Source: Microcaldota archaeon (GTDB lineage Archaea; Micrarchaeota; Micrarchaeia; Micrarchaeales; CABMGC01). Taken from it: a stretch of 46,165 nucleotides of DNA. The position numbers were made by a program, and so were the translations under genes. The number at the start of each line of letters is the position of its first letter. The stretch's first letter is position 1. The notes beneath the pieces are model-generated. The model had not been told where the DNA came from and searched no databases. It worked only from the letters and a program-made list of their open reading frames with translations. Positions 13,961-36,137 of the stretch are shown here, in pieces. Location: assembly GCA_021803945.1 (NCBI GenBank), contig JAJZKW010000008.1, forward strand, positions 1 through 46,165, read 5' to 3'.

Positions 13961-14731
13961 CTAGCTCTTCAGCTCTATGTATCCCAAGGACACCATCTTG
14001 TCCAGTATCTGCTCCGTCCTTGTAGGAGATATGCTGTGCGCCTTTGAGAACTCTACAACATCTATGGAGCTGTTATGGACTGTTATCCATTCATCCACAA
14101 GAGCCATGAGCGACTCGTCGCTGTATTTCTGCAGGGAAGAGAGCTTCTCCTTGAGCACCTTGTTCTCCTCGGTGAGCTGCGCTGACTGAAGGGTGAGGTT
14201 CCTGTTTGAGGCGGAGATCTCTATGTCCAGCCTCTTGAGCTCCCTGTATTCCGTGAGTATAGAGTCGTACCTGTTGTACAGTGACGTGTATGTCTCCGAG
14301 AGGCCGGTTATCAGGCTCTCGAGGACCGAGTCTATGTACTGTATGAATTTTGTCTGGTTTACTGTGTATTTTTCCGCGAGGATCGAAAGCACGGCTGACA
14401 GCTCCTTGAGCACGTAGGCCCGCCTCAGGTTCACGCTCGAATCCGGTATGAGGGAATACACGACGCTTATCCCGTCAGGCCTTACCTTTATTATGTGGAA
14501 GAGGTAGGGCTTCTTGCCTATGTTCCTGCTCTCTACTTTTATCATGTCAAGTTCGTCGCCGTCAGCCTTCAGGAGGTAGAATGGCAGCTTTCCAAGGGTG
14601 TCCTTGACATCGGCCATGCTGCCATTCAGCTTTCCGTCAATCCTGAATTCCTCCACTTTAGGCTGTGAGGAAATCAGGGCATTTGAAGGTGAAGCGGTAT
14701 CGGGCAACGGACCACCATAGGGTATTGACAT
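13961..14731 (-). CDS. Coiled-coil protein with C-terminal winged helix
   Basis: A 256-aa cytosolic protein. Residues about 25-110 form an alpha/beta domain (KVEEFRIDGKL ... LFHIIKVRPDG). About 115-205 are helical with a long coiled coil (ILTEYRELKRLDIEISASN ... LTEENKVLKEKLSSLQ). The last 50 residues resemble a winged helix (DVVEFSKAHSISPTRTEQILDKMVSLGYIEL). No named family is recognised. It lies 5 nt after the zinc-ribbon membrane gene. Candidate roles are locus regulator or cytosolic adaptor that brings DNA to the channel (inference). Confidence 0.7.
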   Translation of the reverse strand: MSIPYGGPLPDTASPSNALISSQPKVEEFRIDGKLNGSMADVKDTLGKLPFYLLKADGDELDMIKVESRNIGKKPYLFHIIKVRPDGISVVYSLIPDSSVNLRRAYVLKELSAVLSILAEKYTVNQTKFIQYIDSVLESLITGLSETYTSLYNRYDSILTEYRELKRLDIEISASNRNLTLQSAQLTEENKVLKEKLSSLQKYSDESLMALVDEWITVHNSSIDVVEFSKAHSISPTRTEQILDKMVSLGYIELKS

Positions 14732-14736
14732 TGGGC

Positions 14737-15117
14737 TTATTTATTGCTTGTGTTTTTTGTGGCGGGCTTGGCTGCGTCTTTGATCGAAAGCGCAGGAGTG
14801 TAATTCAGCAGCGAAAGCCCGTACAGGGCGATAAGCAGCAGGATCCCGACCATCACTGTCTGTGCGGTAAGCCGTATAGCTGCCCCGAGGACCAAGAATA
14901 TCGCTCCGAGTATTACGTATATGGCCTGCCTTGACGTGTACCTGTCCCTCCTCTTCCTGTATTCGGGATAGCACTCCCTGCATATCGCGAGCCTGTTGCC
15001 CTTCTCGTTATGCGTGACGTTCCTCTTGAACCATCTTATCGCCTCGAGCACCCTGTCGTCCTTTATAGGTATGCCTTGCTTCTGCTTCCCGCATATTATG
15101 CAGTATGTTGCCTTCAT
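14737..15117 (-). CDS. Zinc-knuckle protein with two membrane helices
   Basis: A 126-aa protein. Two C-x-x-C pairs (Cys 6/9 in CIICGK and Cys 46/49 in CRECYP) can bind one zinc in a cytosolic head. Two hydrophobic segments follow (about 65-82 and 86-105), then a short Lys/Thr-rich tail. The family is unknown. The gene is 4 nt after the 98-aa gene in the same operon. It is probably a small inner-membrane part of the secretion machine that could touch DNA or the ATPase. Confidence 0.7.
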   Translation of the reverse strand: MKATYCIICGKQKQGIPIKDDRVLEAIRWFKRNVTHNEKGNRLAICRECYPEYRKRRDRYTSRQAIYVILGAIFLVLGAAIRLTAQTVMVGILLLIALYGLSLLNYTPALSIKDAAKPATKNTSNK

Positions 15118-15121
15118 GACA

Positions 15122-15418
15122 TCAATCCACAGAGAGCTCTATGAGCCTCCCGAACGTGTTCTTTATCCTTTCCTCCTCGAGGACGTCGAATATGTTTGAT
15201 ATGGTGACGTCGTCTATCCCGGTGCGCCTAAGCATGTTGATTATGTCATTGTGCCTTATGCCGGCTTTCTGCAGCATGTCTGCGAGCATTATGACATTGA
15301 CATGCCTGTGCATCTTGTCCAGCTGCGCCAGGAGCGCCTCTATGTTCTTGTCGCTCACCTTGAAGCTGGAGAGCATCCTCTTCAGTTCAATCCTGTTCAC
15401 AGCGAAAGATCCTGCCAT
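15122..15418 (-). CDS. Stand-alone copy of the ATPase C-terminal helical domain
   Basis: A 98-aa all-helical soluble protein. Residues about 27-80 align without gaps to the last 50 residues or so of the VirB4-like ATPase encoded just upstream. Matching features are I-x-x-L/I-L-x-x-L-D, then a V/L-x-x-x-L segment, then I-x-x-L/F-L-R-x-x/T-G-I-D/S-D and a final I-x-x-x/S-F. Inference: a duplication of the ATPase tail that became a separate subunit, perhaps forming helical contacts with the hexamer. It starts 8 nt after the ATPase stop. Confidence 0.7.
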   Translation of the reverse strand: MAGSFAVNRIELKRMLSSFKVSDKNIEALLAQLDKMHRHVNVIMLADMLQKAGIRHNDIINMLRRTGIDDVTISNIFDVLEEERIKNTFGRLIELSVD

Positions 15419-15426
15419 AAGACCAA

Positions 15427-16932
15427 CTATTCACCGTAGCTGAACGACCTCGTTATTATGGAGTCGGATATGCCTATGCTCCTGAGGAACGATATCACTG
15501 CGTCGCGGCTCAGCTTTGCTGCAAGAAGCACCCTGACGAACTCCTTCAGGTCCACTATCCTGTTCTTCGAGTCCAGGACTGACAGTATAGAATCTATTGC
15601 GTCTGTATTTATATTGCTGTCTATGAACTTCGACTTGAGGAACGGCTTCTCGAAGGAGTACTCCTTTAGTATGGTTAGGTCCCTCATCTCTGATTCGTTC
15701 AGCATGTCAGCGAGTGTTATCGTGTAAACGTCAAGCGGCACCTCCCCTATGACCCTGTTTATTATGAATGTCGACGGGAACTGCGATGACGTCTGGAACG
15801 CCATGTCTATGGCAGCCTGTCCGACGCCGAGCTTGCCTATCTCGCTCCTTATGAACTGCGAGAAGTTCAGCGATCCCTGCAGGTAGTCCATGAACTTCTG
15901 GAACTTTATCTTGAGTATTATGTTCGTGCCGACGTTTGAGAATATGGCCTCGTTTATATCCGTCGGATTCTGCGACGCCACTATCAGCCCGAACTGGTAC
16001 TTCCTCCCCTCCCTGATTATTGTTATCGCATCGCTTCTCTCGTCGCTTGCGACCTTCCACGCCTCGTCCAGGACTATGAGGGCCTTCAGCCCTTTCGCAG
16101 CGCTCCATCCCTCGGACCTCATCTTCTCCTTGAGGGTCTGCAGCATGAACAGCGCGGCAAGCGCCCTGAACTTCTCGTCAGGCAGTCCTGACAGGTCAAG
16201 GTCTACAAGGCCTGAAGATATGATCTTGTCCAGGTCTATGGTGCTCTTTCTTGCAAAATAATCCTCGCCCTCCCTTGAGAACTGCCTGAGCCTGTATATG
16301 GCGTTCTCAAGCTCTGCGGGATATTCGTAGGTGCCCTCTGCGAGCTTCTCGTCAAGCAGGTGCGCAACATCCTTTAGCGTAGGGGCCTCCTTGCCAGGGA
16401 CCGGAGCGCTCGCAAGGATGAACCCTGCATTTAGATATGCCTGTTCCAAGGCCTCAGAGGTGATCCTCCTCTGCTCTGGGAAATTCGATATGTCAGTTAG
16501 TATGTCAAGCGAATTCATTATCTGCTTGGACCTGTCTATTGGTTTCATGCCGGAAAGGTCCATTATGTTGAGGTAGTCCCCCTTCCCGAACGATATTATC
16601 GTCCCTCCGCTCTGCTTCACCCAGGCCTTGTACTCCCCTGCCCAGTCCAGTATTATCGCGCTTGTGCCCCATACATAGCTCGCCCTTATCAGGAAGGTCT
16701 TTACGAAGAAGCTCTTTCCTGACCCGGTTATCCCTACAACGGATATGTGGGGGTTGGTGAGTATGTTGTATGTCCATGTGAACGGCACTCCGAACCTCCT
16801 TGTTATGCCTATGAAGACCGAATCAGTGGGGTCGTTCAGCAGGAATCCTGCAGGTGGCTCTGGAGGCCTGCTTATGAAAGTCCTCTTGGCGAGCTCATTG
16901 CTCATTATCTTCTGCACTTTTATAAGGCTCAT
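15427..16932 (-). CDS. VirB4/CedB/HerA-like secretion ATPase
   Basis: A 501-aa ASCE-type ATPase. Walker A is GITGSGKS (67-74). An ILDWAGEY segment (about 94-101) follows, typical of the HerA/VirB4/TraC group. Walker B is ALIVLDEAW (284-292), and the ASQNP sensor lies at about 319-323. In place of the roughly 200-residue N-terminal domain of VirB4 there are only about 60 residues before Walker A. Two upstream neighbours may supply it. The last 60 residues form a small helical domain that is also encoded separately next door. This is the motor that would power pilus assembly or DNA transfer at the inner face of the membrane. HerA-type DNA-repair ATPases are an alternative, but the context of pilin and VirB6-like genes favours secretion. 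Confidence 0.85.
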   Translation of the reverse strand: MSLIKVQKIMSNELAKRTFISRPPEPPAGFLLNDPTDSVFIGITRRFGVPFTWTYNILTNPHISVVGITGSGKSFFVKTFLIRASYVWGTSAIILDWAGEYKAWVKQSGGTIISFGKGDYLNIMDLSGMKPIDRSKQIMNSLDILTDISNFPEQRRITSEALEQAYLNAGFILASAPVPGKEAPTLKDVAHLLDEKLAEGTYEYPAELENAIYRLRQFSREGEDYFARKSTIDLDKIISSGLVDLDLSGLPDEKFRALAALFMLQTLKEKMRSEGWSAAKGLKALIVLDEAWKVASDERSDAITIIREGRKYQFGLIVASQNPTDINEAIFSNVGTNIILKIKFQKFMDYLQGSLNFSQFIRSEIGKLGVGQAAIDMAFQTSSQFPSTFIINRVIGEVPLDVYTITLADMLNESEMRDLTILKEYSFEKPFLKSKFIDSNINTDAIDSILSVLDSKNRIVDLKEFVRVLLAAKLSRDAVISFLRSIGISDSIITRSFSYGE

Positions 16933-16936
16933 TGTA

Positions 16937-17758
16937 TCACTTTTGCACCTGGAAGCTCCCCATCAGCTCTCCCATGCTGGGTATTATGTAATTCATCCTG
17001 AACAGCAGGTACAGCTCGCGCCCCATCACCCTGGTTATGCTCAGGTCGAATATGTTGAATATCGTCTGGAGCTCGTTCAGCTGGTTGGATAGGTTGTCGT
17101 TCGCCTCCTTCAGGCTTACCCCCACAGCGGTTGACTCTATGTACATTATGTTGTTTATCGGCTTCTCTCCCTGTCCTATCTTGTCTATGCTCGTCTGGAG
17201 TATGTTCATCTGCCTCTGCATGTTCTCCAGCCCCATAGAATTCGGGGAGGATGACTGCATCTCCTTTGAGTACTGGAACTCGAGGAGGCCCCGCTTTGTC
17301 TCGAGCTCATCCCTGTACCTCTGTATGTCCTCTGATGCGGAAACGAGGTTGAACTTGAATGGGAAGTGTATGTTCATTATCGCCTTCTCCCATTTGTCAG
17401 GCGCGGATACGAGCGCCTCTTCGTCTTCGGTTCCCCTTTCCGCAGCGAATACGTAATTGTATATGTTCGCGGTTAGGTACCCAGTCGCGTAGTATATGCC
17501 GTTTGTGTACTTCACCACCGCCTCCTGTCCGCTCGTTATGACATAGTCCTTTGCAGGCACCTGTGTTATGTTCAGCGCCTTCGTGAACAGAGGGACTATT
17601 AGGAAATCGGCGAATGCGAGGAGCAGGATGACCAACATCGTTACAAGCGAGAGCACGGTCATGATTATGCCTATGGCACCGAACCTGGAGGCGCCGAGAA
17701 GAACCAGCAGCGCTATGAAGAGCGAAATGACGAGGTATATGATTGTGTTTTCGTCCAT
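16937..17758 (-). CDS. Membrane protein resembling a VirB3 plus VirB4 N-domain unit (copy 2)
   Basis: A 273-aa protein. Two N-terminal membrane helices (about 5-22 and 29-55) precede a soluble alpha/beta domain. The soluble part has a strand segment NGIYYATGYL, a long helical middle (SEDIQRYRDELETKRGLLE), and then a VGVSLKEANDNLSNQL-type stretch. RVMGRELYLLFRMNYIIPSM closes it. Topology and pattern parallel its upstream neighbour, and both recall the N-terminal domain of VirB4/TraC ATPases preceded by VirB3's two helices. Sequence identity is low, so this rests on pattern and context. It sits 4 nt before the ATPase gene. Confidence 0.65.
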   Translation of the reverse strand: MDENTIIYLVISLFIALLVLLGASRFGAIGIIMTVLSLVTMLVILLLAFADFLIVPLFTKALNITQVPAKDYVITSGQEAVVKYTNGIYYATGYLTANIYNYVFAAERGTEDEEALVSAPDKWEKAIMNIHFPFKFNLVSASEDIQRYRDELETKRGLLEFQYSKEMQSSSPNSMGLENMQRQMNILQTSIDKIGQGEKPINNIMYIESTAVGVSLKEANDNLSNQLNELQTIFNIFDLSITRVMGRELYLLFRMNYIIPSMGELMGSFQVQK

Positions 17759-17762
17759 AGCA

Positions 17763-18605
17763 TCACTCGGCCTGACCTGACTTGTACTTCATCATCTCTG
17801 TTATCGTTGCAGGAGGTATCATGTAGTCAGGCTCTATGAACACCAGTATGTCGTTGCCCGTGGCAATCGTTGCCGTGACTCCTAGGGTCGCGCTTATGCC
17901 TGCGGCTACCTCCTCTGCCCTGAGGGACGAGAGGTTGATTGCCTCGTCTTCAGTATTCCCCACAGCAGTTATGCTCGCGTAGAGGTTGAGCTCCTGCGAA
18001 TTGGACCTCGAGACGTTGTCAAACATGTTGCGCCACATCGTGACCTCGCCCTTCACCCTGTCAAGCTCCTTGGCAGGCGTGGCCTTGTCGTTCTGCAGGG
18101 TGTTGTACCTCTGCTCAGACTCGTTCAGCTTTGCGGTTATCCTTGACATATACTCGTCCTTGTTTATCGAATTCAGCTGTGACGAGAGCCTTATGGGATT
18201 CTTGCTTATGCTCACGAGCCTGGCGAAGAGCGAAGTGAAGTTCAGCTTCTCCTCGTCGCTCATCTCTGTGGAGGAGCTGTAGACAGGCACCTTTATGAAT
18301 GAGGTGGCATACACCTCGTTCTCATCCCTCACTATTATCGAATTGCCGTTTGGGGACATGTAGAAAGGCTCGCCAGAGTCTATGACTGCAGTCATGTGCT
18401 TCATGCGGACGATCGGATTGAACATGTAATAGTAATCCTTTGCCGCGAAGGCCAGCACGGAGGCTGCAAGTGCCAATATTGCAAGAACCAGGGCTACGAG
18501 GGACAATGAAGCAGGCACAAGGCCCATGAGGACAGTGAAGAGGAAGCCTACCGCGGCGATGATTATGAAGGCCACTCTCTTCTTTCCGCTATCCAAGCAT
18601 ACCAC
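17763..18605 (-). CDS. Membrane protein resembling a VirB3 plus VirB4 N-domain unit (copy 1)
   Basis: A 280-aa protein and first gene of the ATPase operon. Two membrane helices lie at about 11-30 and 34-55. The soluble domain contains SIIVRDENEVYATSFIKVPV, a helical region with EYMSRITAKLNESEQRYNTL, then YASITAVGNTEDEAINLSSL and a closing IEPDYMIPPATITEMM. This is the layout of a VirB4/TraC N-terminal domain and is shared with the next gene. The start is GTG at 18605; a TTG at 18596 is possible. TATA-like boxes at about 18621-18638 on the minus strand favour a very short or absent leader. The stop is 4 nt before the next gene. Confidence 0.65.
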   Translation of the reverse strand: MVCLDSGKKRVAFIIIAAVGFLFTVLMGLVPASLSLVALVLAILALAASVLAFAAKDYYYMFNPIVRMKHMTAVIDSGEPFYMSPNGNSIIVRDENEVYATSFIKVPVYSSSTEMSDEEKLNFTSLFARLVSISKNPIRLSSQLNSINKDEYMSRITAKLNESEQRYNTLQNDKATPAKELDRVKGEVTMWRNMFDNVSRSNSQELNLYASITAVGNTEDEAINLSSLRAEEVAAGISATLGVTATIATGNDILVFIEPDYMIPPATITEMMKYKSGQAE

Positions 18606-20359: not shown

Positions 20360-21568
20360 CTATTCTCCTGGATTTTGGTTTGGTTCGGTTGTATCTGATT
20401 GATCCTTAGCCTTTAGAGCCTTGGCTCTTTTTTCTGACTTGGCTTTTAGCTTGGCTGCCTCCTCTTTTAGCCTGGCTGCCGTCTCAAGCTTTTCCTTGTC
20501 CTCTGCGCTGCGCATTTCATCGATCGGCTGGCCCTTTGCCTGATCTGCCATTTTTGCGCTTGACTCTGCTACTTCTTTCTCAAGTTGTGCCGCTCTCTCT
20601 TGGATGAGACTAGCCTGTTGAGCCTCTGTTGTAGCTTCGCGGATTTTTTTCTTAGTGATTAATTCCTCTTTCTTTTTTGGAACAAGTCCCGGGAAGAGGG
20701 CGTTAGGTCTGAGGGTAAAGAGGTAACTAGAGTCTTTCTTTAGTTTTTCCAGTTCTTCTGCAGCATGCTGCTTCGAGAATTCGCGGGAAGCCGCTCGTTC
20801 TATCTCTCGTTTCTCGGCTCGCCTTCTGAGAACTTGGTCTCTTGCCGATTCTCCATTTGGAGTTGGTCTTTCGGCAATATTTGCAGCTGTTGCCTTAGCC
20901 GCACGCAATGCAGCGCCATATGCTCCTATATTGTTCTCTACCTGAGATTTGATGAATTCCATTGATTCATTATGCTCTGAGATAAGGGAACTGGTAGGAG
21001 AAAATAGAGAAAAACTTGTTTTCCCCCATTTCTTGGATGTGGATTCCTTCCACGTCTTGAATGCGTCTTTGGTCTTGGAACCAGTATCCTTCTCTCTCCT
21101 GATTTGTGTTGCGCCAGTTGTTTTTTGTGTATTGCCGCTAGCTGTTTTTCTCTTCCCAATCGTTGTAGATACTCTTACCCTGCCGCCTTCTGCGGATGCA
21201 GCGCCTGAAACTGCCAGTGACGCGGCCACTTTGCCTACTTTGAGCGTGTGTATGAAAAATCCAGGTCTCGACGCAAGGAATTTGCGCTTAGAAGATTCAC
21301 CAATGGATTTGACGATCCTCTTATGTGTACCTGAACCTGGGAGATACCCAGCTCCTGCAAAACCGAATCCTGACTTTCCTGCTATTGATGCCTTGCCCCC
21401 GGGGTTTATGCCTGCCAGAGTGGCCAGGCCGAAGAAGTTGAATAGGCTGTAGCCCCTGTTAAGCCCTGCAGCGGCCACAAGGAGAGTTATTATTATCAGT
21501 ATAGGTATGAGGGCATTTATTGCGCCCAGCGAAAACAGGACCATGGCTATGAAAACCAACATTCCCAT
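20360..21568 (-). CDS. Membrane-anchored basic coiled-coil protein
   Basis: A 402-aa protein. Two hydrophobic segments lie in the first 40 residues. A Gly/Ser/Lys-rich linker follows, then long charged helices rich in Ala/Glu/Lys (about 230-385) and a polar tail ending TEPNQNPGE. A TTG lies one codon upstream of ATG 21568. The ATG is preferred because a TATAAATA box (21592-21599) predicts transcription starting at that base. The bulk of the protein should be cytosolic. The family is unknown. It follows the six polytopic membrane genes on the same strand but has its own promoter. Confidence 0.7.
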   Translation of the reverse strand: MGMLVFIAMVLFSLGAINALIPILIIITLLVAAAGLNRGYSLFNFFGLATLAGINPGGKASIAGKSGFGFAGAGYLPGSGTHKRIVKSIGESSKRKFLASRPGFFIHTLKVGKVAASLAVSGAASAEGGRVRVSTTIGKRKTASGNTQKTTGATQIRREKDTGSKTKDAFKTWKESTSKKWGKTSFSLFSPTSSLISEHNESMEFIKSQVENNIGAYGAALRAAKATAANIAERPTPNGESARDQVLRRRAEKREIERAASREFSKQHAAEELEKLKKDSSYLFTLRPNALFPGLVPKKKEELITKKKIREATTEAQQASLIQERAAQLEKEVAESSAKMADQAKGQPIDEMRSAEDKEKLETAARLKEEAAKLKAKSEKRAKALKAKDQSDTTEPNQNPGE

Positions 21569-21591
21569 CAATAATATTGTGCATTTTCAGA

Positions 21592-21611: not shown

Positions 21612-22691
21612 CTATACCAGCGACCTTAGCTTCGAGGAGGTCTTGCCCATTCCCCCCAAAATCTCCGCTATCTGGGTTATTAGCATATATGTCATTGCAA
21701 GTATCAATACTGGAAAGAAGAGTATGGAAAGCCAGTAAGCGCTCATTGCGCTCTTTGCCCTTGTAAGCGTTGTCACCAGAGGAGCCCCTGGAGATGCGGC
21801 CTGGTAGACCGAATCCTGCAAGTTACCACTGTATTTATTAAGAACTGCATTTGTCTGGCTCAGCTGCGACTGTATACTGGTTGACGTGAAGTAATATGCA
21901 ACGGAGAAGAGCAGAGGCATTATGAAATAGAAGCCTATGGCAATAGCCATCATCATCCCGCCTAGGTTGCGTGTAGGTATGAGCGCCCTGAATATGACTC
22001 CAGGTATCAGGAATACCGGAATTGCGGCATACATGAAGAACGTTATCAGGTAGAACTGCGTGTAGAATGATATCAAAGCCTCGAACATGAAGCCAAGTAT
22101 GGAAAATGCAGGCCAGAAGAAATAATAATAGAATGGCGCTTCAAGAAGACCCAAGACGCTTGGTATCAACACACCGAATGCATTTCCAGAGATGGAAAAC
22201 GAAGTAAAAGCGCTATCTATAGCAGCGAGATAGAATAAGCTGGACATTGTGGAATAGGTAGTATTTATCGTAGTGGAGATATATGCCAGTGAAGTGTCAT
22301 AGGGATTTATCGTGCCAGTAGTCATCGATGGGAGTAGGCCAAACATCACTGCGGCTATGAACGCGAAGAGTATTGCCATTATTGCTGTAGCAGTTGCTTC
22401 GTACAGTTCGCCTGTTCCGAAGGTCCTGAGCCTATCGTTTCTCAGGGCGACGCCGAACATGAAGAGCACTGCGGCTATAGTATACGAAAACGTAACGGCC
22501 AGGAACAGTATGGGAAAATAATGCGCCCACTCGTTTGTTATGAACGGGTTTATGTCAGTGCAATACCATGGGGCATATGTGTTTATAGATCCTGAAGCTT
22601 GGCTGCAATACTGTGCAACAGGAGACTGTGAGTGCACTATACCTACGATGATCGCAAATGCAAAAGAGACCATTAAGATTTTGTATTGCAT
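21612..22691 (-). CDS. VirB6/CedA-like polytopic membrane protein, paralog 6
   Basis: A 359-aa membrane protein with an N-terminal signal-like segment (MQYKILMVSFAFAIIVGIV) and about seven hydrophobic helices. It carries all three motifs of the local family: block 1 FGTGELYEAT (91-100), block 2 with Arg 235 in FRALIPTRNLGG followed by an alanine/glycine helix ending in Pro, and block 3 near the C-terminus (IAEILGGMG ... LRSLV). The likely role is one of the channel-forming inner-membrane subunits. It is 10 nt downstream of paralog 5 and the last of six consecutive paralogs. Confidence 0.75.
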   Translation of the reverse strand: MQYKILMVSFAFAIIVGIVHSQSPVAQYCSQASGSINTYAPWYCTDINPFITNEWAHYFPILFLAVTFSYTIAAVLFMFGVALRNDRLRTFGTGELYEATATAIMAILFAFIAAVMFGLLPSMTTGTINPYDTSLAYISTTINTTYSTMSSLFYLAAIDSAFTSFSISGNAFGVLIPSVLGLLEAPFYYYFFWPAFSILGFMFEALISFYTQFYLITFFMYAAIPVFLIPGVIFRALIPTRNLGGMMMAIAIGFYFIMPLLFSVAYYFTSTSIQSQLSQTNAVLNKYSGNLQDSVYQAASPGAPLVTTLTRAKSAMSAYWLSILFFPVLILAMTYMLITQIAEILGGMGKTSSKLRSLV

Positions 22692-22701
22692 AGGCAGCGC
22701 C

Positions 22702-23805
22702 TCATATTATCCTTGTAAGTATCGAAAATAGATCCATTCTTTCTCCTATGGCCTTCGAGAAATCAACAATGAAAGCATCCACTACTATTAAGTTGAGAAG
22801 AGGTATAAATATCAACCCTGCGCTTACAAGACCTCCGAAGATTATGAGCGGAGTGAATATTCCTGCGAAGTTGCTAAGGACGAGTGGCGCTCCGAGTAGA
22901 GGACTGATAATCAACGCCACAGATGTCAAAGCATTGTAGAAATTTAATAGCATATGCGTAGAAACAGCATTTGTCATTACGACATCTATGAACCCGTAAG
23001 TCATGCTTGCCATCAGTGGAAATACGAATCCTAGACCCAGTCCAAAAGCTATCATTGCGCCTCCGAAGCTCTTGGTCACTCCAAATGACCTTGCTATAAG
23101 CCCCAGTATAAGGAAGATTGAAAATAGGAGCGCAGAGGAGCTAAGAAGGATCTGGAGTAGTTGCGATGTGAGCACAACAAGGAAATACGCGCCTAGTGCC
23201 GGAACTATATATTGGTGCACCAGGACTATTGGAAAAGCATTAAATACCAAGGCAGCACCTATTCCGGAAACTGGGACGGATTCCGCGATTGGATAACCAA
23301 CAACTCCTCCTGGTGGAGGAAGTTTTAGAACCGAGGAAGGATTAAGGCCGCCGACAAGTGAGAATAGGTATATGCCTTCGCTGAATATCCCGACGTACTG
23401 ATTAAACTGGTACATATCGCAGAGTGATATGCCATAAATGTCGTTTATGTTACTTGAGGATGGGATATTTGTAGCGATGCTTGGGTTGCATAGCTGAGGC
23501 AGCAGCCCTGCCGAATTGTATGCACTAGCAGGATTCACTGAGACAAGCAAGGTCGAGAAGCTTAGGAAAATTATGGCCAGAATTATTGTGACAAACGCAT
23601 CGTATATCTTGGCCCTAGCCCAGACCCGTATATCATTCCTGCCGAGCAATGGACTGAGCTGGTATATTATTGCGACCACAGCTATGATTGCAAGAACTGC
23701 GGCCATTACTATTGGGAACCATATATTCGGGCCTGCAGAAAGGAAGCATACTATGCTGTTTAAGCTTCCTGGGCAGAATGCATTAAGCATTATATTTTGT
23801 ATCAT
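22702..23805 (-). CDS. VirB6/CedA-like polytopic membrane protein, paralog 5
   Basis: A 367-aa protein without a clear cleavable signal; the first helix is at about 29-50. Block 1 is WARAKIYDAF (62-71), where the usual Glu is replaced by Lys-Ile. Block 2 has Arg 239 in ARSFGVTKSFGGAMIAFG. Block 3 is FSKAIGERMDLFSILTRII at the C-terminus. It has about seven hydrophobic helices. The start overlaps the stop of paralog 4 by 4 nt, so translation is coupled. Confidence 0.75.
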   Translation of the reverse strand: MIQNIMLNAFCPGSLNSIVCFLSAGPNIWFPIVMAAVLAIIAVVAIIYQLSPLLGRNDIRVWARAKIYDAFVTIILAIIFLSFSTLLVSVNPASAYNSAGLLPQLCNPSIATNIPSSSNINDIYGISLCDMYQFNQYVGIFSEGIYLFSLVGGLNPSSVLKLPPPGGVVGYPIAESVPVSGIGAALVFNAFPIVLVHQYIVPALGAYFLVVLTSQLLQILLSSSALLFSIFLILGLIARSFGVTKSFGGAMIAFGLGLGFVFPLMASMTYGFIDVVMTNAVSTHMLLNFYNALTSVALIISPLLGAPLVLSNFAGIFTPLIIFGGLVSAGLIFIPLLNLIVVDAFIVDFSKAIGERMDLFSILTRII

Positions 23806-25073
23806 AGTATCCTACTCAACGCCCTTGAACCCTGCAATGATGGGGCTCCTAACAGTCCCCCGATCTTTTCAACCAGTTCATATGAGATCAGCAATCCTAT
23901 TATAAGTCCGACCAGATTTATTCCTACGGTCTCTAATCCCTGAACGAATGCAAAGACATTGGCATAGAAAAGATCTCCTAGATTGAATGTAATTATACTG
24001 GAATATGCAGACCATGAACCTGAAACGAAGTTTGGCACACTGCAGAGGGTGCTGAATTTTGAAAATGTTCCTGTCTGTCCAGACGTGGATGTGCCAATAT
24101 TACAGAAGCCTCTTCCAGCATTCGTACCTGACGCTGGATTATTCACTGAGAATGGATATATCAACGCTGGAAATATGATATAAAAGGCTATGAAAAGGGC
24201 TATCAGGGAGCCTCCTGCAGGCCTTGTCCACGGAAACGACCTGAGGGCGATGCCAATATACAGGAATAGCGGGAACAAGAAATAGATCATAACTAGGAGC
24301 ATTATAATTGATATACCTAGGAATATACTGCCGAAATACGTAGTCTGCTCATCCCACAGGAGGGCTGTCATCACAGATATACCCTGAAACGGAGTAAATG
24401 CGATTCCGGCAGAATTTGGTATAAGATAGAATGTGAGGCCTCCGAGGCCTGGCGGCGCGTTTGAAGCAAATATGTTTGTCACATAAAGATTAAGGAAAAC
24501 TCCAAACCAATTCGTGAAGCTTGTTATTACCACGTTGTTCTGTATATTGTTGCAAAGGGAGACGTACATTGCGGATGCGCTGCTGGAAGCCACGGCAGAG
24601 CCGCCCTGTAGCGCTGCGAAATTGACAAAGAAATTTATCGCTCCGCCTTCCCAGGCCAGTGTTATTCCGACAACGGTTATTATCGCCACGTTTATCATAG
24701 ATTCAAGCAGCTCTGCCTTTGCGAAATTCAGCAATGTCTCTATATGGAACGTATATCCAAAGGCATACACCAACCCTGCGACAAGCATCATTGCCAATAT
24801 TATGAGCAGAGAGATTGATACTATGGATCCGTAGTTTGTTGCCTTTGCCAGGGCGGGGTCGTAAGAGCTACTTGAGCTGAATATTGACGTACATTGGATT
24901 ATCGGCTGCGATAACGTTTGCCCTTTTGCAGGGCTCAAAGGACATCCTGATCCGAAGCGGGCACAGGCAGGAGATATCGAACTTGAAGGCACTTGAGCTG
25001 AAGCAACGCTTGTAACTGAAGCTGCAATAACTAGAAGCATAGCCAATTGGAATAATCTCAATTTATATGCCAT
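23802..25073 (-). CDS. VirB6/CedA-like polytopic membrane protein, paralog 4
   Basis: A 423-aa protein. A signal peptide (MAYKLRLFQLAMLLVIAAS, cleavage near VASA) precedes a Cys/Ser-rich segment and about seven helices. Block 1 is FAKAELLESM (117-126). Block 2 has Arg 278 in ALRSFPWTRPAGGSLIALF. Block 3 is VEKIGGLLGAPSLQGSRAL. The frame is open to 25106, which would add 11 residues and overlap paralog 3. I prefer ATG 25073 because it puts the signal peptide at the very N-terminus. Confidence 0.75.
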   Translation of the reverse strand: MAYKLRLFQLAMLLVIAASVTSVASAQVPSSSISPACARFGSGCPLSPAKGQTLSQPIIQCTSIFSSSSSYDPALAKATNYGSIVSISLLIILAMMLVAGLVYAFGYTFHIETLLNFAKAELLESMINVAIITVVGITLAWEGGAINFFVNFAALQGGSAVASSSASAMYVSLCNNIQNNVVITSFTNWFGVFLNLYVTNIFASNAPPGLGGLTFYLIPNSAGIAFTPFQGISVMTALLWDEQTTYFGSIFLGISIIMLLVMIYFLFPLFLYIGIALRSFPWTRPAGGSLIALFIAFYIIFPALIYPFSVNNPASGTNAGRGFCNIGTSTSGQTGTFSKFSTLCSVPNFVSGSWSAYSSIITFNLGDLFYANVFAFVQGLETVGINLVGLIIGLLISYELVEKIGGLLGAPSLQGSRALSRIL

Positions 25074-25083
25074 CCTTTTCAAC

Positions 25084-26811
25084 TCATATGAACCTACTAA
25101 GCCCAATTAAGGTGGTTTCTCCTCCCATAAGGGCAGAAAGCCCTGTCATTGCGGAGATCATCATAAGCAAATTAATTATCGGGACTATGAACCCTGAAAC
25201 TGTGATTATGCCGTACATGTTTACCAAAGCAGTGTATGCAGCTACAAGGTTGTGAGGACCTACTTGAGCTATGCATGATCCTCCTCCGGATCCAAAGAAT
25301 GGGCTGAAAAGTTGAGAGCCTTGTGAAGAGGCACTGTTCGAGAATAACAACGAAAAGATAATTGAAGTTGGTCCGAGGAAGTTGGATACTTCAGTTGTTG
25401 TGAGTATACCCAACTCCGTTAAGAAGATATAATTCCCTCCGGAAGGATAGCAGGAGTAAAGATTAATTATGTCTGCAGCGCTCGGAAAAACATAAAAGCT
25501 TAGGTTCTTTTTCACATAGCATATGGGCTCATTGGAAAATGGATTGGATGTTTGAGTTGTGGATGAAGATTGAGAAGGAGGACAGGAGCGAGCCGTTGGA
25601 GGGCATTTTGTAGAGGTAGCGGGTGTGGACTGGCTCGTAGACTTGTATTGGTTTTCAGCTTGCGCGACTGTTTTGCATGCTGAGATTGATGAGGTATATG
25701 AAGGTGGCTGGAGGCCTTTGTATATGTAGCTTGTCTGCAGATTGTTTGCGCTGGTGTAACAGAAAAGCACGCTGTTGCTTCCACTTCCCGACACTGGGCC
25801 GAAGCCGCACAAAGCCATCCCAGGCACAAGGCTAGAGCCTATGAACGGCTGTGATTGCAGGTTATTGAGAGCTCCGTATTCTATTAGATATATTGTTGGC
25901 AATAGGATTATTCCAGCTATGGTGGCTGCAGTTATGAGACCTCCGGCTCTCCTTGTGAAGGGTATTGTCCTGAGGATTATACCTGCGGCAAGGAGATACG
26001 GCCAGCCTATCAGCAGGATTATTATGACAGTCAATTCTATTATCTCCATGTAGAGCGTCATCGTCGCCTGTATCACTATTGATGGAGCAATCAGCCTCTG
26101 CAGCACATATCCATTATATGGTTTGTAGCTTATCTGAAGTTTTGTCATGAGGGAGGAAGGAGACCATGGAACTACGCAATCGCCAGGTGTGCAAAATCCT
26201 ATGAATGGTGCCATGTTCCTAAGGAAGAATACTAGGCTATCAAAATTATACATAGCATTAAGCTCCATTGTAGACTGGTTAGTCATGTTTGCGATTATGA
26301 CGTACATTGAAGCTAGGCCGTAGTCAATGTGGGAAGTTACTCCGCCTTTTGGGCCTGTCGGCCCTATAAGGTTCTGGCATACTGCTGCGGTAGGTTCTGG
26401 CAGGCCTGCAGCTGCCTTTTTGCTATTAAGCAGGTTTACCTGCGAATTGGATAGAGAAGTTGTGCATATGTTCGATATCTGCGAAGCGCCATTGGGTCCG
26501 AGTATCGTTGAAAAGCTTATGTCAGAGGTGCCGATCATGTACAGCACGCCTATTATTATGATGACAAGAGCTATGCTCCCGAGGGCCTGCTCGAATTCCG
26601 TTATCGCGGAGCTTTTTATTCTTGAATTATTCAGCAGGTACCCAATCATGTAATATACTCCGGCCAACAGGGTAGCTAGCAGCGAAGCGATTATTATAAT
26701 AGGGAACCAGTTGGTAAATGCAGAATAGTGAGAGGATATTGGAGTTGGGGCAGAATGGACTAGAGGGATTAGTACTAATGCAAGAAGCATATAGATGATT
26801 TTGTAGTTCAT
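25084..26811 (-). CDS. VirB6/CedA-like polytopic membrane protein, paralog 3 (with large loop)
   Basis: A 575-aa protein, the largest of the six. It has a signal peptide (about 1-20, cleavage near VHSA). Block 1 is ITEFEQALGS (70-79). A long first extracellular loop (about 97-240) carries Cys residues. Block 2 has Arg 281 in LRTIPFTRRAGGLITAA. Next is a second, Ser/Thr/Cys-rich extracellular insert (about 315-470). Block 3 is LSALMGGETTLIGLSRFI. The loops could form the external part of the channel. It overlaps the stop of paralog 2 by 4 nt. Confidence 0.75.
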   Translation of the reverse strand: MNYKIIYMLLALVLIPLVHSAPTPISSHYSAFTNWFPIIIIASLLATLLAGVYYMIGYLLNNSRIKSSAITEFEQALGSIALVIIIIGVLYMIGTSDISFSTILGPNGASQISNICTTSLSNSQVNLLNSKKAAAGLPEPTAAVCQNLIGPTGPKGGVTSHIDYGLASMYVIIANMTNQSTMELNAMYNFDSLVFFLRNMAPFIGFCTPGDCVVPWSPSSLMTKLQISYKPYNGYVLQRLIAPSIVIQATMTLYMEIIELTVIIILLIGWPYLLAAGIILRTIPFTRRAGGLITAATIAGIILLPTIYLIEYGALNNLQSQPFIGSSLVPGMALCGFGPVSGSGSNSVLFCYTSANNLQTSYIYKGLQPPSYTSSISACKTVAQAENQYKSTSQSTPATSTKCPPTARSCPPSQSSSTTQTSNPFSNEPICYVKKNLSFYVFPSAADIINLYSCYPSGGNYIFLTELGILTTTEVSNFLGPTSIIFSLLFSNSASSQGSQLFSPFFGSGGGSCIAQVGPHNLVAAYTALVNMYGIITVSGFIVPIINLLMMISAMTGLSALMGGETTLIGLSRFI

Positions 26812-28016
26812 ACATTACCCCAGAACGGCCCTGCGCCTATTATCTTTCCTGTTGAATTTAACCCTTTTGTAAGTCCCTGGGCGAACGCAAGGGTTATCGC
26901 CAAATCTATGCCTATCAGGACTATCCCTTCAAAAGCGTATTCCGCAGTGGAGATAGAGAGATTTACTATGACACCTGGTGCCTGCAGCATAGTCTGAATG
27001 AGCTGCTCTATTATTGTGAATATTCCCCCATACTGCGAAAGGGGAGATGAGAAGAACGATGACAATGAGCCTATTTGGGAAATGGGAGATCCGGAGTGCG
27101 GGAAGGCGCTAGTCTGCTGATTGAATAATTGCGAAGTTGGAATCGAAGAAAGGGCATAAGGCGCATTGTATTGGCCGTATGGGTTGCATATGACAGAAGA
27201 CGCGCTGCAAGGTGTATAAATCCATGAGATTATATATCCATTCATTAGTATTGCTAGCGGCAGTATGAAATAGAAGCCTATGGCTAATGCCATTATGGAA
27301 TCTGCAGATTCTCTGAGTTTCGGCCCAGCAAATGGTATTGACCTCATTATCAGAGAAAGCGGCACTATTACCGTTAGTGCGAGCGCCTCTATTACAGGCA
27401 GAAGCAGGTAGATCATGAAGATGATTCCGAATGACACAACTATTAAGGGCTCGAACGCAGACCCGAGCGCACCGCTCATCCCGAAGATGAAGCCGACAAG
27501 GTCTGGGGAGGTTGAGTATCCAATGGCGCTAGAAAAGAAGTCTTCTAGGGTGCTTATGGTGTTTGCAGTTATGGCAAGCAATACAGACTCGGAATATATT
27601 TGGGTGAAAAGGCCAAGGCCTTTTGAGAACATGAGATTACCAAGATAAACCTGCGAATACTGCATTGGATCACTGTATACTGTCTTCGTTATTGAGGTTG
27701 ATGATGATACAAGGGTCTGGCCGATATTGCAGGTTATGGCCGAAAATGCCATCAAGACCATGATTATGCCTATGCAGACTACTCCCTGAAATGCCTCGTA
27801 CTTTGCAGCGGATTTCATCTTTTCGCCCATTGAAGCCGGGAAAACGTTGCTCAGGGCATAGACAAGCGCAGCTATCGAGAATGAGAGGAGTATGACTAGG
27901 AGGTTTATCTGTATCCACCCGTAGGTGTTCAGGGTATTCGTTGATGTTGTGGTGCCGCCAAAAACACACGTAGTGCTATACGCGTTATGAACTGCGGAAA
28001 GTATTATTGGTAGCAT
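26808..28016 (-). CDS. VirB6/CedA-like polytopic membrane protein, paralog 2
   Basis: A 402-aa protein. A short N-terminal Cys-containing external stretch is followed by about seven helices. Block 1 is SAAKYEAFQG (69-78). Block 2 has Arg 225 in MRSIPFAGPKLRESADSIM, where the usual Gly-Gly is replaced. Block 3 is diverged (LTKGLNSTGKIIGAG). Extracellular loop at about 265-330 is Ser/Tyr/Pro rich. It lies 11 nt after paralog 1. Confidence 0.75.
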   Translation of the reverse strand: MLPIILSAVHNAYSTTCVFGGTTTSTNTLNTYGWIQINLLVILLSFSIAALVYALSNVFPASMGEKMKSAAKYEAFQGVVCIGIIMVLMAFSAITCNIGQTLVSSSTSITKTVYSDPMQYSQVYLGNLMFSKGLGLFTQIYSESVLLAITANTISTLEDFFSSAIGYSTSPDLVGFIFGMSGALGSAFEPLIVVSFGIIFMIYLLLPVIEALALTVIVPLSLIMRSIPFAGPKLRESADSIMALAIGFYFILPLAILMNGYIISWIYTPCSASSVICNPYGQYNAPYALSSIPTSQLFNQQTSAFPHSGSPISQIGSLSSFFSSPLSQYGGIFTIIEQLIQTMLQAPGVIVNLSISTAEYAFEGIVLIGIDLAITLAFAQGLTKGLNSTGKIIGAGPFWGNV

Positions 28017-28027
28017 ATTAATCAGGT

Positions 28028-29287
28028 TTAAGCCAGTTTCAGTTTGTTTCCTAAGGACAGCCTTATAGAACCTCCCATTGCCTTTGCGATGGCATCAACG
28101 AGCGGATACATTATTATTAGATCAAAAACGAACAATAGCATTTGTATTATGATGTAGAACCCGATGACAAATATTTGATTTAGGTAGGTGTATATTGCAC
28201 TTAAGGAGAATACTGGAAAAGCCGCCCATATAGAATAAAATAGGTTTGTAGGAGCTACGGAGCCCGGAGAGAATATTGAAGCTAGACACAAAAATGATCC
28301 GATAATACCTGCTCCTGCAGAGGAAGATACGGCTGTGCATGATTCTGATGCGAAGAGAAATGGCACTGGAACTGATATTGGTAATGCACTTGCGATTAAA
28401 GTTGTTACTTGATAGTTGAAGAGTATGAATGTCGCAGGTATTACAAGACATAGCGCCACGCCTATAGCTATGATGGTACCCCCAATCCCACGGATGAATG
28501 GGAATGCCCTGAACATTATCCCAAGAGGGATGAAGAAGGTTAACCCTATGTATGCAAATGACGGCAGGGTGGTTAGGAACCCTATTATGAGTGCAGTGAA
28601 TGGGAAGAGCATGAAGTTTACAAGATCCCCTATTATAGAGCTGAACGGAGATATAAAGTAATTGCCAGTCTGCAGCATCCAGTTTGCGAACGGGAGGAAC
28701 TGCACGCCGAAAAACAGTGTTACATATTCCAATATTGGTATTGGTATATAGAACCCTAGCTGCACGCTGGACCAGAAGCCAGTGCCTGCTGACATTATCC
28801 CTACTTCGCTCCATATGTTTGTCAGGTTGCTGTTCACATTGCATAGGTACCCTTCAGCTCCGGCTACTAGCGGGGTTATGTCAGCAAAGGCTGACGTGTG
28901 TATCCCTGTAGCTATTGAATTGGGCACTAGCGCATATGAAAGATTTCCGATGAACATTATCGCTCCGTATATGCTAACTATTATTATCGCGGATTTAGCG
29001 ATTTCCCAGTATTCGTTTTGGATCCAGTTCCTTATCCCAGTATTGGGGAACAGCCTGCTTATTACAAATGCAATCGCAACAACATCGAAGGATACGGTCA
29101 GCGCTATCAAAGCCAATCCAACTCCAGCCCCGGAATTTGTAATAGGAGTAGTATAACCAGATACGCAAACCTGAGGTATGGGCGAGCCGTTGGGATAAGA
29201 TATGGCACCTGGAGGAGTGGAAGCATATATGACATTCGAAAGCGCTAGCAGTAGAAACGCAAAGAGAACCGATAACCTTAGTCGCAT
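28028..29287 (-). CDS. VirB6/CedA-like polytopic membrane protein, paralog 1
   Basis: A 419-aa protein. A signal peptide (MRLRLSVLFAFLLLALSN, cleavage near IYAS) is followed by seven or eight helices. Block 1 is IQNEYWEIAKSA (89-100). Block 2 has Arg 260 in FRAFPFIRGIGGTIIAIG. Block 3 is IAKAMGGSIRLSLGNKLKL. It is the first gene of the six-gene run. A TATA box about 25 nt before a predicted start just upstream of the ATG suggests that the run to 21612 is one operon. Confidence 0.75.
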   Translation of the reverse strand: MRLRLSVLFAFLLLALSNVIYASTPPGAISYPNGSPIPQVCVSGYTTPITNSGAGVGLALIALTVSFDVVAIAFVISRLFPNTGIRNWIQNEYWEIAKSAIIIVSIYGAIMFIGNLSYALVPNSIATGIHTSAFADITPLVAGAEGYLCNVNSNLTNIWSEVGIMSAGTGFWSSVQLGFYIPIPILEYVTLFFGVQFLPFANWMLQTGNYFISPFSSIIGDLVNFMLFPFTALIIGFLTTLPSFAYIGLTFFIPLGIMFRAFPFIRGIGGTIIAIGVALCLVIPATFILFNYQVTTLIASALPISVPVPFLFASESCTAVSSSAGAGIIGSFLCLASIFSPGSVAPTNLFYSIWAAFPVFSLSAIYTYLNQIFVIGFYIIIQMLLFVFDLIIMYPLVDAIAKAMGGSIRLSLGNKLKLA

Positions 29288-29413: not shown

Positions 29414-30151
29414 TCAGTGCCTGAGCAGCCTGAATCTGTCCATATACGCCTCGGCTATGAATATAATAAAATACGGGACTACGAAGAGCGAGTTGAGGAC
29501 AAGGACAACGTACCTGGACCAGAATGTGCCGAGCAGCGATATGGACACCGTGTCCAGGACAGAGACTACGATGGTTATAAGCACAAGCCATAAGAGGAAG
29601 TACTGAGGCTCGCGGAGCACCAGCCTTGCGCTATCCTTTACAGCACGCATGATCTTCTTATCGTCAACCACTACCGCGCTCGGAGCATAGAATATTATCG
29701 CGAACCCGAAGAGCCCTACCACTGCTGTGAGCAATGTTGATATCCCGAACGAATAGCCTATGATGTTTGCGGCAGTCATTATTATGGCATATACAAGGAA
29801 TATCACGAATACCTTGCCTATGTATGCCTCTATGTTCTTGAACGTCCTGCTGCCTATTGTTGAGTGCGTCCTCTTCGACTTCACCAGTATGCTTATCAGC
29901 ACAAAGGCGAAGCTCAGGAAGAGGAGGGAGAATATTGTGGAGGCAGTTATGACTGCGAGGCTCAGCAGATTAATGTTCCCGTTCACGAATACGCTCGCGC
30001 TCCGCAGGAAGATCGCTCCTGCAGAGATGTACGTGGGGAGCGGAGCCAGCATGGGTATGGCGAAGGCTATAAGGAAAGGTATTGAAAAGATCACAGCAAG
30101 GCTTATCTTATCCCTGTAAAGCTCAAAAGACTCCTGGATTACTCCGGCCAA
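29414..30151 (-). CDS. Six-helix membrane protein of unknown function
   Basis: A 245-aa integral membrane protein with about six hydrophobic helices, including a long first one (SLAVIFSIPFLIAFAIPML). Cytosolic charged links include VKSKRTHSTIGSRTFKN and DDKKIMRAVKDSARL. The overall look is that of DUF4013-like membrane proteins, but I cannot assign a family. The start is TTG at 30151, since no in-frame ATG or GTG is better placed. A TTTTAA box lies about 25-30 nt upstream. It is between the six-paralog operon and the glycosyltransferase-like gene. Confidence 0.65.
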   Translation of the reverse strand: MAGVIQESFELYRDKISLAVIFSIPFLIAFAIPMLAPLPTYISAGAIFLRSASVFVNGNINLLSLAVITASTIFSLLFLSFAFVLISILVKSKRTHSTIGSRTFKNIEAYIGKVFVIFLVYAIIMTAANIIGYSFGISTLLTAVVGLFGFAIIFYAPSAVVVDDKKIMRAVKDSARLVLREPQYFLLWLVLITIVVSVLDTVSISLLGTFWSRYVVLVLNSLFVVPYFIIFIAEAYMDRFRLLRH

Positions 30152-32247: not shown

Positions 32248-32607
32248 TTATGGGCAAGTTGGAGAAGTTATACTTGATCCGCCAGCACTTGCTATCATAC
32301 CGATCAATGACGGGGCTATTATTACTATTATAAGGCCCACTATTCCTCCGACAATCATGCCAAGCGACCATCCCTGAAGGTTTCCCTTGAGGTTGCCTGC
32401 TGCAGGAAGCATGTGTGCAACTGCGTATAGCGCTCCACCTAGTATGAAGAGTGCAAGTGCCAATATCCCTACAACCGATCGAATGCTGCCGATTATTCCG
32501 CAAAGGCTGCTGCTTATTGCTGTTGAAGCTTGAGCTGTTACGAATTGTATCGCAATCGTTCCTGCAAAAACCAGTACCATCAGGTAGAATCTGTTTATAT
32601 AAGCCAT
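32248..32607 (-). CDS. VirB2/TrbC-like pilin
   Basis: A 119-aa small protein. A signal peptide (MAYINRFYLMVLVFAGTIAI, cleavage near VTAQA) is followed by two hydrophobic helices. The first is in SVVGILALALFILGGALYAV and the second in GMIVGGIVGLIIVIIAP. A short polar loop between them holds GNLKGNLQGW. That hairpin, plus small size after processing (about 93 aa), is the VirB2/TraA/CedA1 pilin plan. Two Cys, at the start of the mature part and at the extreme C-terminus (SPTCP), could form a disulfide. The frame is open to 32640. I chose ATG 32607 because the TATA box at 32648 predicts a start at about 32625. It is the first gene of the minus-strand locus. Confidence 0.78.
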   Translation of the reverse strand: MAYINRFYLMVLVFAGTIAIQFVTAQASTAISSSLCGIIGSIRSVVGILALALFILGGALYAVAHMLPAAGNLKGNLQGWSLGMIVGGIVGLIIVIIAPSLIGMIASAGGSSITSPTCP

Positions 32608-32646
32608 ATTCTCAACTTTTTCGTGAATAGCTATAGACAATAGCTG

Positions 32647-32831: not shown

Positions 32832-33995
32832 ATGGCAGACCAGGAGATAAAGACAGGAATCGATGCTTTAGTGGCCTATCTCAATGAACACGGAGAGACC
32901 AACATATCAGAAGTGGCAGGCGCTCTAGGTGTTGGGGAATCGGCAGTGCTCGAGTGGGCGAACGTGCTTGAGAAGGCGAATGTGATAAGCGTGGTCCACA
33001 AGGCAGGGAAGCTCTTCCTCCTTCCAGGGGGAGGCAGCGCTGCGCACGCAAACGAGCTGAAGCAGACCGAACAGATAACGGTCGAGGAGCTCGTATCGTC
33101 CGACCTTGCAGCAGTTGACCAGGTGTCGTCAAGCCTAGAGGAGTTCACGAAATCCCTCTCTTCCATAGACACGCTGTTCGATACTAAGTACAAGAACGTG
33201 AAGGTGCTGCTCGACAAGCTAAACAGCATAGATGCCGCTCTGGCGAAGGCGGAGAACGAGGTCGTCGCGAAGACGAACCACGTGAAGGAAGTTGCTGACA
33301 AGTCTAGATCGCACTACGAGTCAGCGCAGAAGTACCTTGCGAACCTTGCGGGATTCAACATAGACACTAACAATGCAAGGGCTGTCGCTGCTGAGCTCAA
33401 GGACGCGCTCAAGGCCTATGAGAGGAACATTGCTGACCTTACAAAGAGCCTGGAAGCTGTCATATACCAGTACAGGAAGAACGCGCTGGAGCTCTCCAGG
33501 AGCATAAAGGAGAAGCACGCCCAGCTCGTCGAGGTCATGAGCTACGATGAGAGGCAGATTCGCGAGTACGAGAAGCTGGGCAAGGACACCAAGAGGGAAT
33601 ACGCAGACCTCACCAGGAAGGCCCAGGAGATAGGCAAGCATGTGCTTGACGAGATAGCAAAGGACATGGAGGAAGTTGACAGGATATCGCGCGCGTCGAG
33701 CGCGCAGGTGGCTGCGATAAGGCCTAAGGTGGACGAGATGAGGAAGGACTTCGGGCAGATATCGGAGCTCAACGCAAACCTGGTCAGCATAAGGAACAAG
33801 GTAGATGCGATAATAAAGCAGAGGGACGCACTGGTAGCGGAGCTCAAGAAGATCCAGGGCGAAGCCAGGTCAGGCAACCCATCCAAGGAGATGCTTGACA
33901 GAGCTAACGAGATAGCAGACAATGTGGCTTCGCTAAGGAACGATGTCGAATCGGTAAGGAAGGAATTCAAGGATATGGGCAAGGGTAAGGGATGA
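32832..33995 (+). CDS. Winged-helix plus long coiled-coil protein heading the pilus operon
   Basis: A 387-aa cytosolic protein. Residues 5-65 form a winged helix (IDALVAYLNEHGETNISEVA, then GVGESAVLEWANVLEKANVI and a KLFLLP wing). From about 95 to the end it is almost continuous coiled coil, rich in Lys/Glu/Ala, resembling SMC-like coils. No ATPase motif. It is the first gene of the operon, 6 nt before the pilus ATPase gene. A cytosolic platform or regulator of the pilus motor is inferred from position. Confidence 0.75.
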   Translation: MADQEIKTGIDALVAYLNEHGETNISEVAGALGVGESAVLEWANVLEKANVISVVHKAGKLFLLPGGGSAAHANELKQTEQITVEELVSSDLAAVDQVSSSLEEFTKSLSSIDTLFDTKYKNVKVLLDKLNSIDAALAKAENEVVAKTNHVKEVADKSRSHYESAQKYLANLAGFNIDTNNARAVAAELKDALKAYERNIADLTKSLEAVIYQYRKNALELSRSIKEKHAQLVEVMSYDERQIREYEKLGKDTKREYADLTRKAQEIGKHVLDEIAKDMEEVDRISRASSAQVAAIRPKVDEMRKDFGQISELNANLVSIRNKVDAIIKQRDALVAELKKIQGEARSGNPSKEMLDRANEIADNVASLRNDVESVRKEFKDMGKGKG

Positions 33996-34001
33996 TTTTT
34001 G

Positions 34002-35510: not shown

Positions 35511-35513
35511 GCA

Positions 35514-36137
35514 ATGGACATGGATTACAACGAATGCGTAGACATGATAAATTCAGCAGAGGCGCACGACACAGAGGCGCGCTCTGTCATAGCCGACATA
35601 TACGACCTTGGGAATGCTGTGGAGATAAGGCAGTACAGCGAGGCCGAAGCTGCTGAGGCCATTGAATATGCGGACTCTGCAGTTGAGGCCGCCGCGGGGA
35701 CTAAGAAGGAGCAGGTGCAGCAGCCGCAGAAGCAGATACTGCAGAAGACCTATGTAAGGCTTCGGGAGAAGAGCCCGGCGCGAGGCGCCGGAAGGGAGAT
35801 GGACGCGGTGGCAAAAGAGCTCGAAGCTGCGATATCGAATGCGACAAAGGAGCTCAAGGAGCGCGTCGGGGAGAGGATGAAGCAGGTGCAGCAGCCGGCG
35901 GAGAGTGCGGGTCTCGTGATGGTGACTCTGTCGCTGCAGGACCAGATAGGCGAGCTTGAGAAGATCAGTGCAGGAATTGACAGCGGTGCGTTCACAACGG
36001 AGCAGATGGAGATAATAAAGATTGAGATAAGGGGGCTTATGAAGGCGAGGGGCTCGGCCCCTGATGCCTTCCAGGCGAATCTTTTAAAGATACGCGATGA
36101 CAGGCTAAGGGAGGTATCGAAAAAACTGGGAGTGTAG
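35514..36137 (+). CDS. Coiled-coil protein of the pilus operon
   Basis: A 207-aa hydrophilic protein without signal or membrane helix. The first 60 residues are acidic (EAEAAEAIEYADSAVEAAAG). A Gln/Lys/Pro-rich linker (about 62-80) follows, then helical coils (VAKELEAAISNATKELKERV). No family is recognised. It lies between the ATPase and the first membrane subunit with 3-nt and 0-nt spacers, so a cytosolic adaptor of the pilus machine is likely (inference). Confidence 0.7.
   Translation: MDMDYNECVDMINSAEAHDTEARSVIADIYDLGNAVEIRQYSEAEAAEAIEYADSAVEAAAGTKKEQVQQPQKQILQKTYVRLREKSPARGAGREMDAVAKELEAAISNATKELKERVGERMKQVQQPAESAGLVMVTLSLQDQIGELEKISAGIDSGAFTTEQMEIIKIEIRGLMKARGSAPDAFQANLLKIRDDRLREVSKKLGV

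Follow-up and report, generated by a model that had tools for sequence, protein, structure and literature searches.

The systems that most closely resemble the locus described here are the Ced system of Sulfolobales (CedA, CedA1, CedB, CedD and CedE), the Ted system of Thermoproteales and the type IV secretion systems (T4SSs) of bacteria. CedA and TedA are relatives of VirB6 (PMC9905601). In bacteria, VirB6/TrbL (for example, R388 TrwI) is a polytopic channel protein encoded by one gene beside a VirB4-type ATPase and a VirB2-type pilin, and it is a homopentamer (PMC12624023, PMC12857230), whereas the bacterial inner-membrane complex is hexameric (PMC12624023). An initial annotation of this DNA took it that bacterial T4SSs use a single VirB6 and that archaeal Ced uses CedA. 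The first statement is not general, as Rickettsia carries five tandem virB6 paralogs beside virB4 (PMC2653234). Saccharolobus has a second CedA paralog, CedE, and a CedA-CedE hetero-oligomer has been proposed (PMC11868833). Tandem channel paralogs are already known from Rickettsia and Saccharolobus, and the Micrarchaeota array described here is notable for its strictness and depth; no report of it was found in a literature search that lay mostly outside subscription papers.

The window (the whole stretch of DNA analysed, 46,165 nucleotides) comes from a Ca. Micrarchaeota genome (G000) of 902 kb in 26 contigs. Six consecutive minus-strand ORFs, all encoding polytopic proteins and called A to F in order of position, were all present at the coordinates originally reported: A (28028..29287, a CedA-like polytopic protein of 419 aa), B (26808..28016, 402 aa, with an N-terminal hairpin that also resembles the pilin-like protein W130 described below), C (25084..26811, 575 aa, with a large insert), D (23802..25073, 423 aa), E (22702..23805, 367 aa) and F (21612..22691, 359 aa). 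The gaps between consecutive genes are 11, -4, 10, -4 and 10 nt, so that the six genes form a tight operon and are probably translationally coupled. A central residue that had been proposed to be shared by all six (260, 225, 281, 278, 239 and 235 in A to F, respectively) was Arg in every one of the window proteins. Across orthologues this Arg is nearly invariant except in C: it was found in 53 of 53 sequences for A, in 54 of 54 for each of B, D and F, and in 52 of 53 for E, while 45 orthologues of C carried it and 7 others were listed as Ser, Glu or Gln. The two further motifs reported for the set held in part only. Only A, D and F have the whole early E-x-x-E block, which has a single Glu in B, reads E-x-x-Q in C and is variant in E. 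The C-terminal GG...L..R tail can be seen clearly in four of the proteins (A, C, D and F) and is weak in the other two.

Kinship among the six proteins was assessed by profile-profile comparison (hhalign), with alignments of about 54 orthologues per array gene. All 15 pairs were aligned at 97.2-99.5% probability (E 4e-11 to 4e-22), while controls, consisting of nine other families from the same loci and of reversed profiles, stayed below 27% with two exceptions, namely B against W130 (86.7%, the alignment spanning the hairpin) and D against its own reversed profile (82%). E and F were already linked by plain phmmer (approximately 1e-10). A to F are true paralogs and their likeness is not due to chance, and the observation of a six-gene run was borne out in a stronger form than first made. 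Membership in unrelated transporter families was rejected, as no significant match to any Pfam or NCBIfam family was obtained for any of the six window proteins.

The VirB6/CedA-like identity originally assigned to the proteins stood for CedA, by distant HMM matches, and failed for VirB6/TrbL as a direct match. The CedA HMM (NCBIfam NF041796) produced 21 matches at E<=1e-3 in 20 of 98 related genomes, the best of them at 27.9 bits (E 4.9e-7 per genome) and below the curated cut-off of 330 bits, and gave no match in the window genome itself. Fourteen of the 21 matches fall in fetched loci, where all but one (in A) are to gene D, and by coordinates the other seven lie at D's distance from F. Among orthologues, D is the member that this NCBIfam model (Ced_CedA) detects most often. 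Since the scores are far under the curated cut-off, the array proteins are CedA-like rather than CedA, and the homology is distant. PF04610 (TrbL) gave few and weak matches in the related genomes, none of them at the array places, a nine-sequence bacterial VirB6 profile scored below 1% against A to F, and a recognisable VirB6/TrbL domain was not found in the array copies. A fold search with an AF2 model of F (pLDDT 75.8) gave no significant match, the R388 TrwI/VirB6 stalk entry being ranked 22 (E 0.85). As the direct match failed, kinship with VirB6 is indirect, by way of CedA/TedA (PMC9905601). The array differs from bacterial VirB6/TrbL in having no profile link to it as well as in gene number.

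A bacterial parallel in arrangement is found in Rickettsiales (rvhB6a-e; virB6-1 to -4), a host-dependent lineage of reduced genome size in which tandem, strongly diverged channel paralogs with large inserts lie beside virB4 (PMC2653234). The Rickettsiales arrays are bacterial and have an outer membrane complex, comprise five or four copies, with virB6e missing in some, and retain a recognisable TrbL/VirB6 domain, which the Micrarchaeota array does not. The locus shares with them tandem diverged channel paralogs accompanied by a VirB4-type ATPase, a likeness of arrangement only.

The genes flanking the array resemble those of a Ced/T4SS-like machine. Directly upstream of A, on the same (minus) strand as all genes of this locus, lies a polytopic protein of 245 aa (29414..30151), and further upstream is the VirB2/CedA1-like pilin candidate W130 (32248..32640, 130 aa, TTG start uncertain), with an apparent signal peptide and two TM helices. 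On the other side, F is followed by an accessory protein of 403 aa (20360..21571, TTG start uncertain) with a hydrophobic N-terminus and a long charged tail, found in 21 of the loci only, and then by two two-TM proteins, one of 280 aa (17763..18605, VirB3/VirB4-N-domain-like) and one of 273 aa with a soluble domain (16937..17758, VirB4-N-domain-like), which are paralogs of each other (97.9%). Next come the motor ATPase of CedD/CedB/VirB4/HerA type (15427..16932, 501 aa), a small conserved protein of 98 aa (15122..15418), and three genes conserved in this engine locus: a protein with a Cys-rich motif and TM helices (14737..15117, 126 aa), a coiled-coil/wHTH-like protein (13961..14731, 256 aa) and a large surface protein with a TM anchor (11339..13807, 822 aa). 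Being similar to the C-terminal end of the ATPase, the 98-aa protein may be a detached regulatory domain.

The locus does carry a VirB4/CedB/CedD-type ATPase: it matched NCBIfam CedD (1.2e-22), TraC (5.5e-17) and CedB (6.5e-17), all below the equivalog cut-offs, as well as HerA and VirB4 in the PDB. It has no TM helix and no N-domain, the locus encoding the two separate N-domain-like membrane proteins instead, which is a difference from Ced. For the 273-aa protein (AF2 model pLDDT 76.6), the five best Foldseek neighbours were inner-membrane chains of the R388 T4SS (E 0.07-0.2, not significant singly), which agrees with a VirB4 N-domain that has been split off, as has been described for CedB/CedD (PMC11868833). 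W130 gave weak matches to TrbC (E 0.1) and TrwL (E 0.17), and its homologue in locus L208 matched Pfam T4SS_pilin at 2.8e-5, just under the cut-off. The W130 profile also matches several array-adjacent large proteins (470-980 aa) at loci L087 and L090, which suggests either the fusion of a two-helix pilin domain with large surface regions or an expanded pilin family. The window yielded no recognisable relaxase or coupling protein.

A CedA-like polytopic channel protein, a CedD/CedB-type ATPase and a candidate two-TM pilin are shared with Ced, in which CedA-CedE is already a two-paralog channel, while six paralogs in fixed order, in place of one or two, and a very low sequence similarity set the array apart. 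A further likeness is that a type IV pilus-like operon adjoins the array in divergent orientation (32832-38121, +), comprising a GspE-type ATPase (33999-35510, +) and two TadC/T2SSF membrane proteins (36138-37109 and 37099-38121, both +). GspE also adjoins in about ten related loci. In Sulfolobales, Ups is the partner of Ced, and the arrangement seen here recalls that Ups-Ced pairing. Beyond this operon the window contains two ATPases of DUF4143-type appearance (38253-39512 and 41176-42456, both -); a possible RelE-like toxin (40423-40818) and a short ORF of 101 aa (43024-43329, +) are nearby.

Within Micrarchaeales, 53 of 54 loci have the genes in the order A-B-C-D-E-F, and the remaining one (L054) is truncated at the edge of its contig. 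All six genes were seen directly in 52 loci, the window included, and a further locus (L085) makes 53: an apparent lack of E in it was rejected, E being intact under an over-extended F ORF. The surrounding order also recurs, as pilin-like, [625 aa], 245 aa, A to F, [403 aa], 280 aa, 273 aa and ATPase, continuing into the engine part as 98, 126, 256 and 822 aa, and the full order from pilin to the 822-aa gene recurs across two families of Micrarchaeales. The array-adjacent ATPase was found in 97 of the 98 related genomes (E<=0.001), about 90 of which have an orthologue of 63-85% identity and the rest only weak HerA-type matches. In two Micrarchaeales genomes, G070 (L202/L045) and G077 (L205/L081), the array lies away from the ATPase and the six genes are still together. 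The array is also present (L047/L155) in Ca. Micrarchaeum harzensis A_DKE, which is in culture; no mention of pili, type IV or secretion was found in the A_DKE co-culture paper. One genome of the window's genus (G011) has F-type and D-type matches on more than one contig (C2, C11 and C18), perhaps reflecting a duplicated array or a mixture of strains.

The search for the same six-gene run in other genomes, which the initial annotation had proposed, was made within Micrarchaeota. Of 295 genomes from the phylum, 253 contained relatives of F by a profile search, and a scan of viral contigs with the same profile found none. Genomes of other families mostly hold 7-18 matches to the profile, because their arrays contain six genes and many genomes have two arrays (40 regions read). 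Of 36 further arrays, 34 were exactly six consecutive genes, one (L229) had seven, the additional copy being 278 aa long and without the first helix block, and one (L232) was cut by a contig end. The 34 include the two relocated Micrarchaeales arrays (L202 and L205), and the others belong to 13 further families. One array (L220) had six genes with one of them weak. A four-gene interpretation of L208 was rejected, as a spurious GC-rich ORF masks A and B, which are read in a different frame. Where two arrays occur, they are of two types, type I and type II, the latter with a long third gene (627-1,409 aa). Type II arrays (L196, L198, L201, L211, L212 and L220) are often near or before proteins of 850-1,640 aa with few TM helices, which are possible surface adhesins or tip proteins.

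The position-specific profiles of types I and II matched one-to-one along the diagonal at all six positions (hhalign). Against A to F, type I followed the diagonal at five of six positions and type II at positions 2, 3 and 6, with a tie at position 1; D and E were not cleanly matched between Micrarchaeales and the other arrays, although single origins are allowed by the tree. In a FastTree phylogeny of 175 proteins, which has long branches and in which exact clades are unsure, position labels required 11 changes (minimum 5) compared with 159 for array identity, and position groups plus the compact group described below required 13 changes against a shuffled mean of 115.7. Gene C was the only position that formed one side of a branch. 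Since the tree groups proteins by position and not by array, the six subfamilies are older than the radiation of the phylum, within the sampling used here, and their order has been kept.

Copy number and order were constant in 87 complete arrays from 15 families, with the single exception of seven. This bears on the possibility that each paralog builds a homo-oligomeric channel of its own, with its own substrate or partner, or that the set provides for host-range or antigenic variation. The inserted parts are strongly divergent, and amplified VirB2 pilin paralogs of intracellular bacteria have been explained by immune evasion and host-surface adaptation (PMC12102498), but gain and loss would be expected of variation systems, and these genes overlap or almost touch and keep number and order; we regard such a function as very unlikely. 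That the six subunits are essentially never lost or amplified and keep their order is best explained by co-assembly in one complex.

Arrays and cognate ATPase also co-occur. Both were present in 16 of 16 genomes of other families that were searched, neither was present in G110, G118, G121 and G123, and genomes of family f17, which have only a more distant compact-type ATPase, gave 1-2 CedA-like matches; these counts leave out a few fragmented genomes and G132 (family f12). In most other families the arrays are not adjacent to the ATPase, which stays clustered with the 126-, 256- and 822-aa genes, a single 273/280-like protein and, in some cases, pilins, the arrays lying elsewhere. The array might be a membrane complex with no role in secretion whose only tie to CedA is common ancestry, since outside Micrarchaeales and family f11 it has no adjacent ATPase or pilin and is often near the 850-1,640-aa proteins. 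Little probability is given to this, as arrays in Micrarchaeales and family f11 share their locus with pilin, N-domain proteins and ATPase, and wherever both could be resolved in a genome, array and cognate ATPase occur together.

Simpler relatives exist in the phylum. Eight loci (L203, L204, L209, L234, L245, L247, L248 and L251) have one CedA-like gene each, in most cases accompanied by a pilin, a single 273-like protein and an ATPase, one such ATPase being closest to CedB (2e-29). Four of these (L203, L204, L209 and L251) follow the compact pilin-channel-ATPase logic of Ted, which has one TedA only and no array. A profile of seven compact CedA-like proteins matched the six array families at 99.0-99.8%, F best, and G070 and G077 hold both a compact system and a six-gene array. 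As the compact relatives are homologous to all six, the six-gene form can be interpreted as an expanded version of a Ced-like system that had one such gene. The proximity of F to the single gene of compact systems could also mean that the six belong to one machine without forming one ring, one or a few (for example, F or D) forming the pore and the others having taken over scaffold roles of bacterial VirB8, VirB10 or VirB3. The inserts differ greatly, position 3 reaching 1,409 aa in other families, and no VirB8 or VirB10 was recognised by family scans of cluster proteins. Set against this division of labour are the same core in all six, the central Arg that is near-universal in five and present in most orthologues of C, and a count fixed at six rather than variable, and we consider it unlikely.

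The reading that we favour, at a probability of roughly 55%, is that A to F assemble into a single hetero-oligomeric channel of a Ced/T4SS-like machine in Micrarchaeota, and that this channel is probably a ring of six subunits. A hetero-oligomeric channel had been suggested from the window alone and is still the best reading of paralogs that are kept together beside T4SS/Ced-type neighbours, while the assembly itself we infer from conservation. The six would be ancient, non-interchangeable CedA-like subunits of a cell-to-cell transfer machine that co-assemble into one membrane channel. The CedD/VirB4-type ATPase, hexameric by analogy, would drive this channel, the 273- and 280-aa membrane-anchored VirB4-N-domain-like proteins would couple motor to pore, and a VirB2/CedA1-like pilus, a filament of the two-helix pilin above the pore, would reach the partner cell. 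By analogy with Ced, the substrate would most likely be DNA. A ring of six would match a hexameric motor, but the known stalk has five-fold symmetry, bacterial VirB6 being a homopentamer, and six different subunits do not fit it. More tentatively, and with rather less confidence than in the channel itself, the array may be an obligate hetero-hexameric translocation pore, built of six fixed-order paralogs older than the Micrarchaeota radiation, through which these host-dependent archaea would exchange DNA or other cargo with partner cells.

The hetero-hexamer, if true, would be a secretion channel in which a symmetric homo-oligomer has been replaced by a full set of dedicated subunits. The six channel paralogs make the symmetry mismatch between the bacterial VirB6 pentamer and the VirB4/VirB3 hexamer testable, and a Ced/T4SS-like machine with six kinds of channel subunit, kept across a phylum of reduced genomes, is a concrete candidate for the exchange of material between DPANN archaea and their hosts.
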